Source: Flavobacterium haoranii
GTDB taxonomy: Bacteria; Bacteroidota; Bacteroidia; Flavobacteriales; Flavobacteriaceae
Length of the DNA: 64,000 nucleotides
NCBI RefSeq assembly: GCF_009363055.1
Contig: NZ_CP045292.1
Coordinates: 868,001-932,000 of the forward strand
Direction: 5' to 3'
A program made the translations under genes and the position numbers. The notes beneath the pieces were generated by a model. That model did not search any database and was not told the DNA's origin. It was given only the letters and a program-made list of their open reading frames with translations. Every line of letters starts with the position of its first letter. The first letter of the stretch is position 1. Below, piece after piece: positions 43,793 through 46,672 of the stretch.

Positions 43793-43800
43793 AAAAATAA
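43793..43800 (+). promoter_or_regulatory. Possible -7 element of the DUF4258 gene
   Basis: TACCTTTG matches TAnnTTTG only 3 bp before the ATG at 43804, so the mRNA would be almost leaderless. No -33 TTG seen. Confidence 0.3.
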
Positions 43801-43803
43801 AAA

Positions 43804-44190
43804 ATGAAATTCAAATTTAGATTTGCATATTATTTATTCGGATTATTATTAGGTGTTTTCTTTGTTATTTGGTTTTTAGGAGCAAAAGCAGAATCTAAAG
43901 GAGTTGCTTTTTGTTATTTGCCAAATTGTAGAGTTTTACAAGATTTAAGAAAAAAACCTATGGATGTTACGCCAGAAGCTCAAAATATTTTAGACGAATC
44001 TTGGGTCAATTTAAACGATATTAAAAACACTTTACAATATGGCGATGTAGATTTTTCAAAAAGTAACAAAGCTTTTAAAAAAGGAAAAGTGTACGTAATT
44101 GAAGGCAAAACAATTCATAATGAAGAAATTACCATAACTATGGTAAACTACACTGATAAAGTTGTTTTGGAAAACATTGAAAAAAAATAA
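43804..44190 (+). CDS. DUF4258 domain-containing membrane-anchored protein
   Basis: 128 residues. One N-terminal transmembrane helix (about 7-27, FAYYLFGLLLGVFFVIWFLGA), a small Cys-containing segment (FCYLPNCRVLQDLR), then a DUF4258-like domain LNDIKNTLQYGDVDFSKSNKAFKKGKVYVIEG with strands ending VNYTDKVVLENIE. The domain is RNase-barrel-like and of unknown role. The gene stands between ald and the tRNA-Val promoter, in the same direction. Confidence 0.8.
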   Translation: MKFKFRFAYYLFGLLLGVFFVIWFLGAKAESKGVAFCYLPNCRVLQDLRKKPMDVTPEAQNILDESWVNLNDIKNTLQYGDVDFSKSNKAFKKGKVYVIEGKTIHNEEITITMVNYTDKVVLENIEKK

Positions 44191-44208
44191 AATTTCTTTC
44201 CAAAACAC

Positions 44209-44238
44209 TTGCAAATACAAATAATCAGTGTATATTTG
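44209..44238 (+). promoter_or_regulatory. Promoter of tRNA-Val
   Basis: TTG at 44209-44211, 19 bp, then TATATTTG at 44231-44238: an exact fit to the Bacteroidota TTG-N19-TAnnTTTG promoter. The transcript would start near 44245, about 43 nt before the tRNA. Confidence 0.85.
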
Positions 44239-44287
44239 CACTCGCAATACGGAACTACTGATAACAGTAAAGTAAAGCATTTTATTG

Positions 44288-44362
44288 GGGCAATTAGCTC
44301 AGCTGGTTCAGAGCACCTCGTTTACACCGAGGGGGTCAGGGGTTCGAATCCCTTATTGCCCA
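44288..44362 (+). tRNA. tRNA-Val (anticodon TAC)
   Basis: A complete cloverleaf: 5' acceptor GGGCAAT pairs with ATTGCCC, followed by discriminator A. TAGCTC begins the D-arm, the anticodon stem is CCTCG/CGAGG with loop TTTACAC (anticodon TAC, reading GUA), and the T-arm contains GGTTCGAATCC. CCA is not encoded. It is the only intact tRNA in the window, and the tandem GIY-YIG units begin inside it at U8. Confidence 0.93.
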
Positions 44363-44370
44363 CAAAATTT

Positions 44371-44400
44371 AAAAGCAACACATTTGTGTTGCTTTTTTTA
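44371..44400 (+). terminator. Terminator of tRNA-Val / unit 1
   Basis: AAAGCAACAC-ATTT-GTGTTGCTTT followed by T-tract, 8 bp after the tRNA. Confidence 0.88.
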
Positions 44401-44420
44401 TTTACCAAAATAAAATTTAT

Positions 44421-44675
44421 ATGCCATACTTTGTATACATCCTTCATAGTCTTACTAAAGACAAATTCTATATTGGTTATACAGCAAATCTTTCAGAAAG
44501 AATAATTCGTCATAATCAAAAAAGTAAAGGTTTTACTGGCTCAACTAATGATTGGAAATTGGTTTATAAAGAAGAGTTTACTTCAAAAAGTGAAGCTATT
44601 TTAAGAGAAAAACAAATCAAAAATTGGAAAAGTAAATCTAAAATTCAAGAATTAATTCAACACAATAATATTTAG
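44421..44675 (+). CDS. GIY-YIG nuclease family protein, copy 1
   Basis: 84 residues, a single-domain GIY-YIG (URI/UPF0213) nuclease: FVYIL as the GIY strand, FYIGYT as the YIG strand, Arg in LSERIIRHN, and a helix with the metal-binding Glu in SEAILREKQIKNWKS. The protein ends in NNI, and its TAG stop (44673-44675) is also U8-A9-G10 of the following tRNA remnant. It could cut DNA at a tRNA gene to spread the unit, by analogy with GIY-YIG homing endonucleases; single-domain members of this family are otherwise of unknown role. It starts 20 bp after the tRNA terminator. Confidence 0.88.
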   Translation: MPYFVYILHSLTKDKFYIGYTANLSERIIRHNQKSKGFTGSTNDWKLVYKEEFTSKSEAILREKQIKNWKSKSKIQELIQHNNI

Positions 44676-44739
44676 CTCAGTTGGTTCAGAGCATCCCGAT
44701 TAATCGGGAGGGTCAGGGGTTCGAATCCCTTATTGCCCA
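44673..44739 (+). pseudogene. tRNA remnant 1 (lacks 5' acceptor strand)
   Basis: Matches tRNA-Val from nucleotide 8 to the discriminator (D-arm TAGCTCAGTTGG, T-arm GGTTCGAATCC, 3' ATTGCCCA), but the upstream bases ATAATAT cannot pair with ATTGCCC. The anticodon arm is replaced by the palindrome CCCGATTAATCGGG. Confidence 0.8.
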
Positions 44740-44747
44740 CAACCATT

Positions 44748-44780
44748 AAAAGCAACACAAATAAATGTGTTGCTTTTTTT
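44748..44780 (+). terminator. Terminator of unit 2
   Basis: AAAGCAACACA-AATAAA-TGTGTTGCTTT plus T-tract, the same stem as in unit 1 with a longer loop. Confidence 0.85.
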
Positions 44781-44801
44781 ATTTACCAAAATAAAATTTA
44801 T

Positions 44802-45056
44802 ATGCCATACTTTGTATACATCCTTCATAGTCTTACTAAAGACAAATTCTATATTGGTTATACAGCAAATCTTTCAGAAAGAATAATTCGTCATAATCAA
44901 AAAAGTAAAGGTTTTACTGGCTCAACAAATGATTGGATATTAGTTCACAAAGAAGAGTTTATTTCACAAAGCGAAGCTATTTTAAGAGAAAAACAAATCA
45001 AAAATTGGAAAAGTAAATCTAAAATTCAAGAATTAGTTCAACAAAATAATATTTAG
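44802..45056 (+). CDS. GIY-YIG nuclease family protein, copy 2
   Basis: 84 residues from the ATG of MPYFVYILHS; the frame is open from 44733, but that extension covers the terminator and has no homologue in the other copies. Differs from copy 1 in a handful of residues (DWILVHKEEFISQSE; QELVQQNNI), and all GIY, YIG, Arg and Glu positions are kept. Its stop TAG (45054-45056) overlaps the next tRNA remnant in the same manner. Preservation of the reading frame in all three copies suggests selection or very recent duplication. Confidence 0.87.
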   Translation: MPYFVYILHSLTKDKFYIGYTANLSERIIRHNQKSKGFTGSTNDWILVHKEEFISQSEAILREKQIKNWKSKSKIQELVQQNNI

Positions 45057-45120
45057 CTCAGTTGGTTCAAAGCATCCCGATTAATCGGGAGGGTCAGGGG
45101 TTCGAATCCCTCTTTGCCCA
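45054..45120 (+). pseudogene. tRNA remnant 2
   Basis: Same structure as remnant 1 (no 5' acceptor; CCCGATTAATCGGG in the anticodon arm) with small changes: GGTTCAAAGC, and CTCTTTGCCCA at the 3' end. Confidence 0.78.
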
Positions 45121-45128
45121 CAACCATT

Positions 45129-45158
45129 AAAAGCAACACAAATGTGTTGCTTTTTTTA
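45129..45158 (+). terminator. Terminator of unit 3
   Basis: AAAGCAACACA-AA-TGTGTTGCTTT plus T-tract. Confidence 0.85.
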
Positions 45159-45178
45159 TTTACCAAAATAAAATTTAT

Positions 45179-45433
45179 ATGCCATACTTTGTATACATCC
45201 TTCATAGTCTTACTAAAGACAAATTTTATATTGGTTCTACAGCAAATCTTTCAGAAAGAATAATTCGTCATAATCAAAAAAGTAAAGGTTTTACTGGCTC
45301 AACTAATGAATGGAAATTGGTTTATAAAGAAGAGTTTACTTCACAAAGTGAAGCTATTTTAAGAGAAAAACAAATCAAAAATTGGAAAAGTAAATCTAAA
45401 ATTCAAGAATTAATTCAACACAATAATATTTAG
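45179..45433 (+). CDS. GIY-YIG nuclease family protein, copy 3
   Basis: 84 residues, nearly identical to copy 1; the changes are FYIGST for FYIGYT, NEWKL for NDWKL and TSQSE for TSKSE. All presumed catalytic residues are present. The TAG stop (45431-45433) overlaps the last tRNA remnant. As in copies 1 and 2, there is no recognisable promoter between the preceding terminator and the ATG except AT-rich spacer, so expression may depend on readthrough from the tRNA promoter. Confidence 0.87.
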   Translation: MPYFVYILHSLTKDKFYIGSTANLSERIIRHNQKSKGFTGSTNEWKLVYKEEFTSQSEAILREKQIKNWKSKSKIQELIQHNNI

Positions 45434-45498
45434 CTCAGTTGGTTCAGAGCATCCCGATAAATCGGGAGGGTTAGGGGGTTCGAATCCCTTATTGCTCA
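45431..45498 (+). pseudogene. tRNA remnant 3, closing the array
   Basis: Nucleotides 8 to 73 of a tRNA with CCCGATAAATCGGG in the anticodon arm, an extra G before the T-arm (GGGGGTTCGAA) and ATTGCTCA at the 3' end. It is followed by a different terminator, so it may be the decayed 3' end of the original target tRNA. Confidence 0.75.
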
Positions 45499-45505
45499 CT
45501 AAATT

Positions 45506-45538
45506 TAAAAACGTTCAAGTTAACTTGAACGTTTTTTT
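45506..45538 (+). terminator. Terminator closing the tRNA array
   Basis: Perfect palindrome ACGTTCAAGTTAACTTGAAC plus GT (45511-45532), followed by a T-tract; unrelated to the GCAACAC terminators of the units. Confidence 0.85.
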
Positions 45539-45585
45539 ATATAAAATATTTACTTTAAATTATATTTTTTCTTAAATAACTACAT

Positions 45586-45617
45586 AAAAAAAGCTCCAAA
45601 AATTGGAGCTTTTTTTA
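45586..45617. terminator. Terminator downstream of the cysteine synthase-like gene
   Basis: A-tract, AAGCTCCAA-AAA-TTGGAGCTT, T-tract. Symmetric, so it can act on both strands; it closes the leftward gene at 45632. Confidence 0.85.
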
Positions 45618-45631
45618 ATATCATTTTTACA

Positions 45632-46672
45632 CTATTTTATAATCTCAATTTTTTGAGTTTGTTCTAAGTTCACACTGTCATAAAAACCTTGTTCACTCAT
45701 CCAATCATCGCTATAAATTTTACTCATATAACGAGATCCATGATCTGGAAATATAATTACTACATTACTATCAGCGATAAATTCCCCTTCTTCAGCATAC
45801 TGTTTAGTAGCTTGAAAAGCTGCACCAGATGTATATCCAACAAATAATCCTTCAGTTTTAGCAATTTCTCTTGCAGTATGCGCACTATCTTCGTCTGTCA
45901 CTTTTATGAATTTATCAATAAGATCAAAGTCAGTAGCTGTAGGGATTAAGTTTTTCCCTAAACCTTCAATTCTATAAGGGAAAATTTCGTTACTATCAAA
46001 CTCTTTTGTTTCGTGGTATTTCTTTAAAACTGAACCAAAAGCATCAACACCTAAAACTTTAATATTTGGATTCATTTCTTTTAAATACTTTGCAGTTCCA
46101 GAAATTGTTCCTCCAGTTCCACTACAAGCAATTAAGTGTGTAATTTTCCCGTTTGTTTGTTCCCAAATTTCAGGACCAGTAGATCTATAATGTGCTTCAA
46201 TATTTAGTTCATTAAAATACTGATTAATATAAACAGAACCTTTAGTTTCTTCGTGTAATCTTTTTGCAACATTGTAATATGAACGTTCGTCATCTGCAGT
46301 AACGTGAGCGGGACAGACATATACTTTTGCTCCCATTGCTCTTAACATATCAATTTTATCTTTTGAAGATTTTGAACTTACCGCTAAGATACAATCGTAA
46401 CCTTTAATAATACTTACCATTGCTAAACTAAAACCAGTATTCCCTGAGGTCGTTTCGATAATTGTATCGCCTGGTTTTAAAATTCCTTTTCTTTCGGCTT
46501 CTTCAATAATATATAAAGCTATTCTATCTTTTGTAGAATGTCCTGGATTAAAAGCTTCAACTTTTGCATAAAAATTACCTTCCATATTTTCAGTAATCTT
46601 CGCTAATTTCAAAATTGGAGTGTTACCAATTAATTCCAGTACATTGTTATAGGCTTTTATTTCTTCTTTCAT
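45632..46672 (-). CDS. PLP-dependent cysteine synthase family protein
   Basis: 346 residues from [23 protein letters not shown]; the frame is open to 46720, but a -7 element at 46728-46735 would leave that start without a leader. PLP lysine in [13 protein letters not shown] near 43, [12 protein letters not shown] near 74 and the phosphate loop [11 protein letters not shown] near 183 mark the OASS/CBS family. No CBS domains follow. It could be O-acetylserine sulfhydrylase, cystathionine beta-synthase or a close variant. It stands alone with a terminator behind it. Confidence 0.87.

Follow-up and report, generated by a model that had tools for sequence, protein, structure and literature searches.

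A candidate minimal homing-type mobile element inside tRNA genes of Bacteroidota, built around a single-domain GIY-YIG nuclease

The window analysed here is a stretch of 64,000 nt from Flavobacterium haoranii (GCF_009363055.1, contig NZ_CP045292.1, positions 868,001-932,000 of the forward strand), in which ARAGORN predicts a single tRNA gene, i.e. tRNA-Val(TAC) at 44288-44363. This gene is followed by three GIY-YIG nuclease genes, each with one tRNA-Val remnant behind it, and the array comprises the following features.

44288..44363, + strand: intact tRNA-Val(TAC) (ARAGORN; Rfam tRNA match of 69.1 bits; empty-site comparison in relatives)
44371..44400, + strand: element-type terminator T1 (sequence; resembles the two internal copies)
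44421..44675, + strand: GIY-YIG ORF 1, 84 aa, TAG stop identical with tRNA-like nt 8-10 (ORF list, PF01541)
44673..44740, + strand: tRNA-Val remnant 1, nt 8 to 3' end (Rfam match, alignment)
44694..44709, + strand: hairpin TCCCGATTAATCGGGA replacing the anticodon arm of remnant 1 (sequence pattern)
44802..45056, + strand: GIY-YIG ORF 2, 84 aa counted from its own ATG (ORF list, PF01541)
45054..45121, + strand: tRNA-Val remnant 2 (alignment; without a separate Rfam match)
45075..45090, + strand: hairpin of remnant 2 (sequence pattern)
45179..45433, + strand: GIY-YIG ORF 3, 84 aa (ORF list, PF01541)
45431..45499, + strand: tRNA-Val remnant 3 (Rfam match, alignment)
45452..45467, + strand: hairpin TCCCGATAAATCGGGA of remnant 3 (sequence pattern)
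45510..45538, + strand: terminator T4, unlike T1 to T3 (sequence)

All three ORFs contain the PF01541 GIY-YIG domain (E 2e-17 to 6e-16), differ pairwise at 4, 10 and 12 of 252 nt and recur with a spacing of 377-381 bp, which bears out the first-pass annotation, according to which an intact tRNA-Val is followed by three direct repeats of about 378 bp with an intact 84-codon GIY-YIG gene per unit. If started at an upstream TTG, ORF 2 would comprise 107 codons. The same annotation let each unit begin at tRNA nucleotide 8; this beginning turned out to be only apparent, since the TAG stop of the ORF coincides with U8-A9-G10 of the tRNA in each unit and the junction in the remnant is the hairpin, which is perfect, 16 nt long and of the same type throughout (TCCCGATTAATCGGGA or TCCCGATAAATCGGGA), located where the anticodon arm is expected. 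Rfam matches two of the three remnants. The units had further been described as containing the tRNA 3' part and a conserved terminator, but units 2 and 3 open with remnant-type sequence and not with copies of the functional tRNA, and the terminators ahead of the last remnant (T1 to T3) are alike, whereas T4 behind it differs.

No integrase gene was found in 44288-45540, the ORFs of at least 60 aa being the three GIY-YIG genes and a frame at 44209-44505 that overlaps the tRNA. In the region 43800-46200, Rfam gave no match to a group I intron RNA up to E 1, and a Y1 transposase gene (PF01797) is absent from the window locus, the two places in the genome with such a gene both being more than 180 kb away. 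Further copies of the unit were not found in the F. haoranii genome (2.87 Mb, one contig), which possesses a second tRNA-Val(TAC) without an adjoining GIY-YIG gene. Two separate observations concern the same genome (G000): it carries one more small GIY-YIG gene at C1:789442-789660 (L009), with no tRNA in the fetched locus, and at C1:18435 and C1:18951 (L367) a hairpin occurs twice, about 516 bp apart and with a common left flank of at least 45 nt, unlike terminator-type hairpins elsewhere.

A chance origin of the window array can be dismissed, as loci built in the same way were found in the genus set, the named set and the phylum set. Relatives of the nuclease were found in 62 of 101 genomes of the window's genus (E 1e-10), some of the copies containing internal stops. 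In 66 of the 122 genus loci examined, the nuclease gene is preceded by an intact tRNA, which lies on the same strand at a distance of up to about 350 nt; 2 loci have the mirror form described below, 8 have a remnant alone and 46 have none, i.e. no tRNA piece detected by the searches used (places left out: G074 twice, G062, G031 C592, G046 C96, G043 C104, G028 and G052 C80). The respective numbers for the 79 loci of the named set, which overlaps the genus set by 16 loci, are 60, 0, 18 and 1. The distance from the tRNA end to the start of the GIY match has a median of 57 nt over 113 distinct loci and amounts to 30-80 nt in 102 of them; by a rough estimate, assuming a genome of 4 Mb with about 45 tRNA genes × 400 nt, well under 1% of genes would be expected behind a tRNA in this way by chance. 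At 20 genus and 7 named loci, BLAST detected no remnant despite an intact upstream tRNA.

In the phylum sample, matches were obtained in 151 of 247 genomes (E 1e-12). The phylum set of 90 loci combines 30 loci with 60 hand-picked regions, partly from the window's genus and including the window itself, so that the 67 loci with an intact upstream tRNA do not represent a random sample; in 7 the intact tRNA is located directly downstream instead, in none on the opposite strand, and 16 have neither. Little upstream sequence is available in 5 of these 16, a motif check detected the hairpin in 11, and neither intact tRNA nor hairpin was found by this check in 5 of the 90 loci. Among these 5 is L335, where seven GIY copies form an array and neither a tRNA nor a hairpin was found in the fetched stretch. 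The largest arrays comprise 6 copies in the genus set and 7 in the phylum set, and the variable copy number anticipated by the first-pass annotation ranges from 1 to 7 per array. In the mirror form, which was found in Ser, Arg and Pro tRNA genes (L304, L343, L337, L354, L299, L351, L155 and L174), the nuclease gene has the remnant on its upstream side and is directly followed by the intact tRNA. The upstream remnant is present in 6 of the 7 downstream-only phylum loci, L311 being located at a contig edge, and by visual reading a hairpin interrupts it in L304, L343 and the genus loci L155 and L174.

GIY-YIG copies without any tRNA piece had been named at the outset as an argument against an element bound to tRNA genes. 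In part, such copies do exist, namely at the 46 of 122 genus loci mentioned above and at L009 of the own genome; the tRNA-piece-free proteins stand largely apart in the tree described below (46 rows), and dispersed repeats flank several of these loci. A different GIY-YIG group of the same genus (L160, L171, L178, L181, L199, L203 and L208), for which no tRNA was found, lies between dispersed repeats (e.g. GTCATTTCGACGAAGGAGAAATC-like) and may represent a separate family of nucleases associated with repeats. Immediately downstream of some ORFs, ARAGORN predicted atypical Cys, Glu, Lys and Phe tRNAs. A record titled Bifidobacterium breve (L061) contains a Flavobacterium-like tRNA-Val element with the terminators of L020, a locus of the window's genus, and is probably a misassigned MAG contig. 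With regard to phage carriage, a viral scan with one protein yielded 21 pattern matches, 1 of which is a relative.

The hairpin was looked for at 182 loci whose upstream tRNA is intact and whose downstream stretches are distinct. Behind the nuclease gene, 115 of them contain a perfect hairpin flanked by tRNA sequence, as compared with 0 of 182 after a single-base shuffle; by this strict test, which requires perfect pairing, a tRNA-flanked hairpin was not seen at 67 loci. The hairpin remnants belong to 13 tRNA classes, and the other tRNA targets anticipated earlier were found. The proposed insertion at the acceptor/D-arm boundary (nt 7/8) had to be abandoned, since the element-host junctions sit at the hairpin, the position of which depends on the isotype. 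It is located at 28|45 or 28|46 in 50 of 54 Val hairpins (28|45 being the commonest), at 27|45 in 9 of 14 Ala and 4 of 4 Arg, at 27-28|45-46 in 5 of 6 Pro, at 25|43 in 2 of 2 Lys, at 37|48 in 8 of 10 Met, at 45|51 in 4 of 7 Asn and at 56|62 in 5 of 5 Phe hairpins, and varies in Asp and Gly. Stems with TCCCGA or TTCCGA occur in 52 of the 83 distinct hairpins. Some remnants contain two hairpins (L022, L109, L124 and L271), and in L271 the first hairpin and the second, which lies beside the T-arm, are reverse complements of each other. An assignment of the hairpin to RAYT/REP repeats was considered and is not supported, with T-run terminators at most sites inspected and PF01797 genes located elsewhere. 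In the F. haoranii genome, 30 TCCCGA-TCGGGA palindromes were counted, 3 of them in the array (backwards pattern: 1), and 13 of 21 palindromes in 20 fetched stretches are followed by at least six T, like ordinary terminators.

The upstream flank of an occupied tRNA-Val locus (L025) was used as a query against 398 genomes, and the best 30 matches were read; tRNA-Val is present in 29 of these loci. The empty sites that the first-pass annotation had expected in relatives account for 18 of the 29, which are free of GIY genes and have a CTCCTTAA-type terminator, with an encoded CCA in 12 of the 18. Three loci are occupied (L247, L268 and L271), three are scars (L257, L264 and L266), in which a remnant and a hairpin are present and a GIY hit is missing, and four have other terminators. 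The terminator of L259 is of the element type although no remnant accompanies it, from which we conclude that the terminator type alone is no proof. No hairpin remnant was found within 1 kb (0.6 kb in L265) in the 23 loci that are neither occupied nor scars. The CTCCTTAA-type host terminator lies behind the remnant in 2 of the 3 occupied loci (L247 and L271) and in 1 of the 3 scars (L257), and in these three loci the functional tRNA bears the element-type end. The last terminator of L268 resembles that of the element-free L248, and a host-type terminator is absent from the stretch inspected in L264 and L266.

Since the terminator of the empty site is found behind the remnant, the insertion lies inside the tRNA gene, with the element supplying a new 3' end. 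Insertion into a tRNA gene with restoration of the tRNA can thus be regarded as well supported by comparison at the one orthologous site worked out in this detail, and the same comparison backs the initial proposal of a free-standing GIY-YIG element whose own tRNA 3' copy keeps the host tRNA whole. The site combines presence and absence, as for free-standing homing endonuclease genes, with a newly supplied gene end and a displaced native end, as in Allomyces atp6; the displaced end includes terminator and CCA in L271 and L257 and the terminator alone in L247.

At the window-orthologous site, tRNA-Val is present in 25 of the 30 loci read among the matches listed, and 3 of these 25, including the window's own, have GIY genes. 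The terminators of the relatives differ here, and no cysteine synthase gene was found within reach of their loci. T4 is presumably the original terminator of the window's host tRNA gene, the portion of remnant 3 past its hairpin presumably the displaced host 3' part, and the intact tRNA-Val of the window would be composed of a host 5' part and an element-borne 3' part. The closest genome (G122, 440 contigs) offers an ambiguous counterpart to the occupied window site, its tRNA being joined to other sequence, perhaps by a misjoin, so that it was not taken as an empty site. This junction and the general proneness of repeats to misassembly could be taken as signs of an assembly or chance artefact, which is practically negligible as an explanation, given that the window genome is one single contig and that the pattern is found in many genomes, some of them single-contig as well.

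The nuclease belongs to the GIY-YIG superfamily, as indicated by the PF01541 match and by the residues Y6, Y17, G19, R27 and E63, which are invariant among 16 diverse members and which we take to be the catalytic residues of GIY-YIG enzymes. A relative in the PDB is UPF0213 (1zg2, E 1.6e-5), and a separate DNA-binding domain was not found in the 84-aa protein. The median dN/dS of 0.076 over 337 non-independent pairs (80-98.5% identity, dS 0.02-2) points to strong purifying selection on the nuclease gene. Such selection is also what one might see in a domesticated or defensive unit, with a nuclease acting on tRNA or foreign DNA and a hairpin remnant serving as decoy or regulator, and the remnants do retain tRNA arms and carry the hairpin at the former anticodon arm. 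However, three GIY-less scars at one site, stop-containing copies and the patchy presence speak against a unit of this kind, which we consider very improbable.

On a tree of 205 distinct proteins, from which 18 of 249 GIY copies with frames below 60 aa were dropped and in which the mirror locus L155 is labelled Ser, the isotype label changes 12 times, the minimum possible being 9, as compared with 103 changes for shuffled labels; none of 200 shuffles gave a value as low, the tree (FastTree, 85 columns) having many weak forks and near-copies alone also clustering labels. Met proteins form one group with a support of 100 and Asp proteins one with a support of 98, and the changes include 3 for Val, 3 for Pro and 2 for the tRNA-piece-free proteins. 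The nuclease lineage hence tracks the tRNA isotype. Vertical descent predicts this as well, and many closely related GIY pairs have homologous flanks, both of which would fit a resident, non-mobile tRNA-associated gene that underwent tandem duplication and vertical descent, with remnants formed by recombination among tRNA copies. This explanation is disfavoured and seems quite improbable to us, because the element-free orthologous sites show the very terminator that lies behind the remnant at occupied loci, because near-identical GIY genes occur in non-homologous contexts (L023 and L087: 96% identity, no flank homology found) and because presence is patchy in genus and phylum genomes. A weaker point is that several pairs show a higher conservation of GIY than of the flanks (97% vs 77% in Polaribacter L108/L109). 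Mobility, in turn, is supported by patchy presence and context.

The reading that we prefer, with a probability of roughly 0.65, is that of a minimal homing-type mobile element living inside tRNA genes, in which the cutting step is assigned to the nuclease by inference. Five parts make up its commonest form: the copied tRNA 3' part, the terminator, a gene for a single-domain GIY-YIG nuclease of approximately 80 aa, a short sequence that mimics the tRNA 5' part, and the hairpin. Comparison with the empty sites shows that the element lies between the halves of the host tRNA, the complete tRNA comprising the host 5' part and the element 3' part, and that the displaced host 3' part and its terminator end up behind the nuclease gene, joined to the mimic by the hairpin; the mirror form leaves the intact tRNA downstream. 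The nuclease, probably made by read-through of the tRNA transcript, would break tRNA genes that are free of the element, within or close to the segment replaced by the hairpin, and repair from an element-bearing copy, with the tRNA halves as homology arms, would copy the element in. The hairpin would erase the target in the displaced remnant, which is its putative role. Arrays would arise most simply by unequal recombination between tRNA and remnant copies, re-insertion being an alternative.

A second tRNA gene of the same isotype is located at 16 distinct loci, 12 times upstream and 4 times downstream of the occupied tRNA; 15 of these genes are identical to the occupied one, and in none of the 16 loci does a GIY gene lie directly behind the second tRNA. 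The persistence of identical unoccupied genes argues against constant cutting of all intact copies by the nuclease; the putative cleavage must be an infrequent event, be subject to regulation or have another target. The remnant is altered by the hairpin, and the rebuilt tRNA and the neighbouring identical tRNA genes retain the supposed target sequence. For free-standing GIY-YIG enzymes, inefficient cleavage of the donor allele is stated to be typical (PMC13096335), which would ease this objection but not remove it.

The survival of identical unoccupied tRNA genes would be accounted for if recombination between tRNA and remnant released a circle (terminator, GIY gene, mimic, hairpin and tRNA 3' part) that re-enters by a single crossover in the tRNA part, with the nuclease acting on the hairpin or the circle and not on the intact tRNA gene. 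A single crossover would lead to the same final structure, a crossover in the 5' part to the mirror form and multimers to arrays, and such a circle would also account for the perfect pairing across 83 distinct hairpins, a pairing which the test itself demands. However, with only about 13 bp for Phe elements and 16-17 bp for some of the Asp elements, the shared tRNA 3' part is short for homologous recombination, and we regard the circle as unlikely, if worth keeping in mind. We consider it probable that the units constitute a new Bacteroidota-wide class of chromosomal mobile elements, in which single-domain GIY-YIG lineages, each specialised for one isotype and one position, enter an essential tRNA gene, bring a replacement half (3', or 5' in the mirror form) and disable the displaced half by a hairpin swap. 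Related units occupy tRNA genes of many kinds in the sampled Bacteroidota, so that the element seems to be both minimal and widespread.

An earlier description of such a bacterial element was not found among the open-licence literature matches listed (titles and abstract starts), subscription papers and preprints being mostly outside, and in a 2006 GIY-YIG survey the three mentions of "tRNA" refer to a methyltransferase fusion and to references (PMC1564403). If true, a unit of about 380 bp with one 84-codon gene would be a very small self-mobile bacterial unit and would show an intron-less nuclease occupying RNA genes that the cell needs. Its isotype-specialised lineages would represent a natural series on how an 80-aa nuclease picks one tRNA gene, and many small GIY-YIG proteins of the phylum, as well as tRNA fragments mistaken for tRNA genes, would acquire a meaning.

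Tyrosine-recombinase elements with tRNA attachment sites also bring a tRNA 3' copy that restores the tRNA, with direct repeats as flanks, whereas the unit described here has a length of about 380 bp, no integrase and a displaced copy with a hairpin in place of one segment. When located in tRNA genes, group I introns that encode homing endonucleases likewise are nuclease elements with which the tRNA stays functional; unlike in these, no intron RNA was found at the window locus, and function would be kept by duplicated tRNA sequence and not by splicing. The phage enzyme SegB is longer than the 84-aa protein of the window. As far as the consulted parts of the sources extend, SegB is encoded in phages T4 and T6 by a free-standing GIY-YIG gene among tRNA genes, is reported to cleave inside tRNA genes and is associated with segment amplification (PMC13096335, PMC2988022). 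The motif reported for it, RAWTSGAAC, agrees by our own reading with the tRNA T-loop GTTCGAATC when the latter is taken as reverse complement. SegB differs in being phage-borne and inserted between tRNA genes, with no replacement tRNA part inside a tRNA gene described in those parts (PMC13096335, PMC2988022). In fungal mitochondria, mobile ORFs replace the 3' ends of Allomyces atp6 and of Glomus atp6, atp9, cox2 and nad3, the hybrid gene being expressed and the enzyme being of the GIY-YIG type in the Glomus atp9 case and LAGLIDADG in the other three Glomus cases, as stated in the part of the report at hand (PMC3630166). These ORFs concern mitochondrial protein genes, and neither a hairpin swap nor a tRNA target is described in that part; as in the elements reported here, an endonuclease ORF carries a replacement gene end and the displaced native end, matching relatives, lies downstream (PMC3630166). 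The carrying of a replacement gene end is a principle already known from fungal mitochondria.
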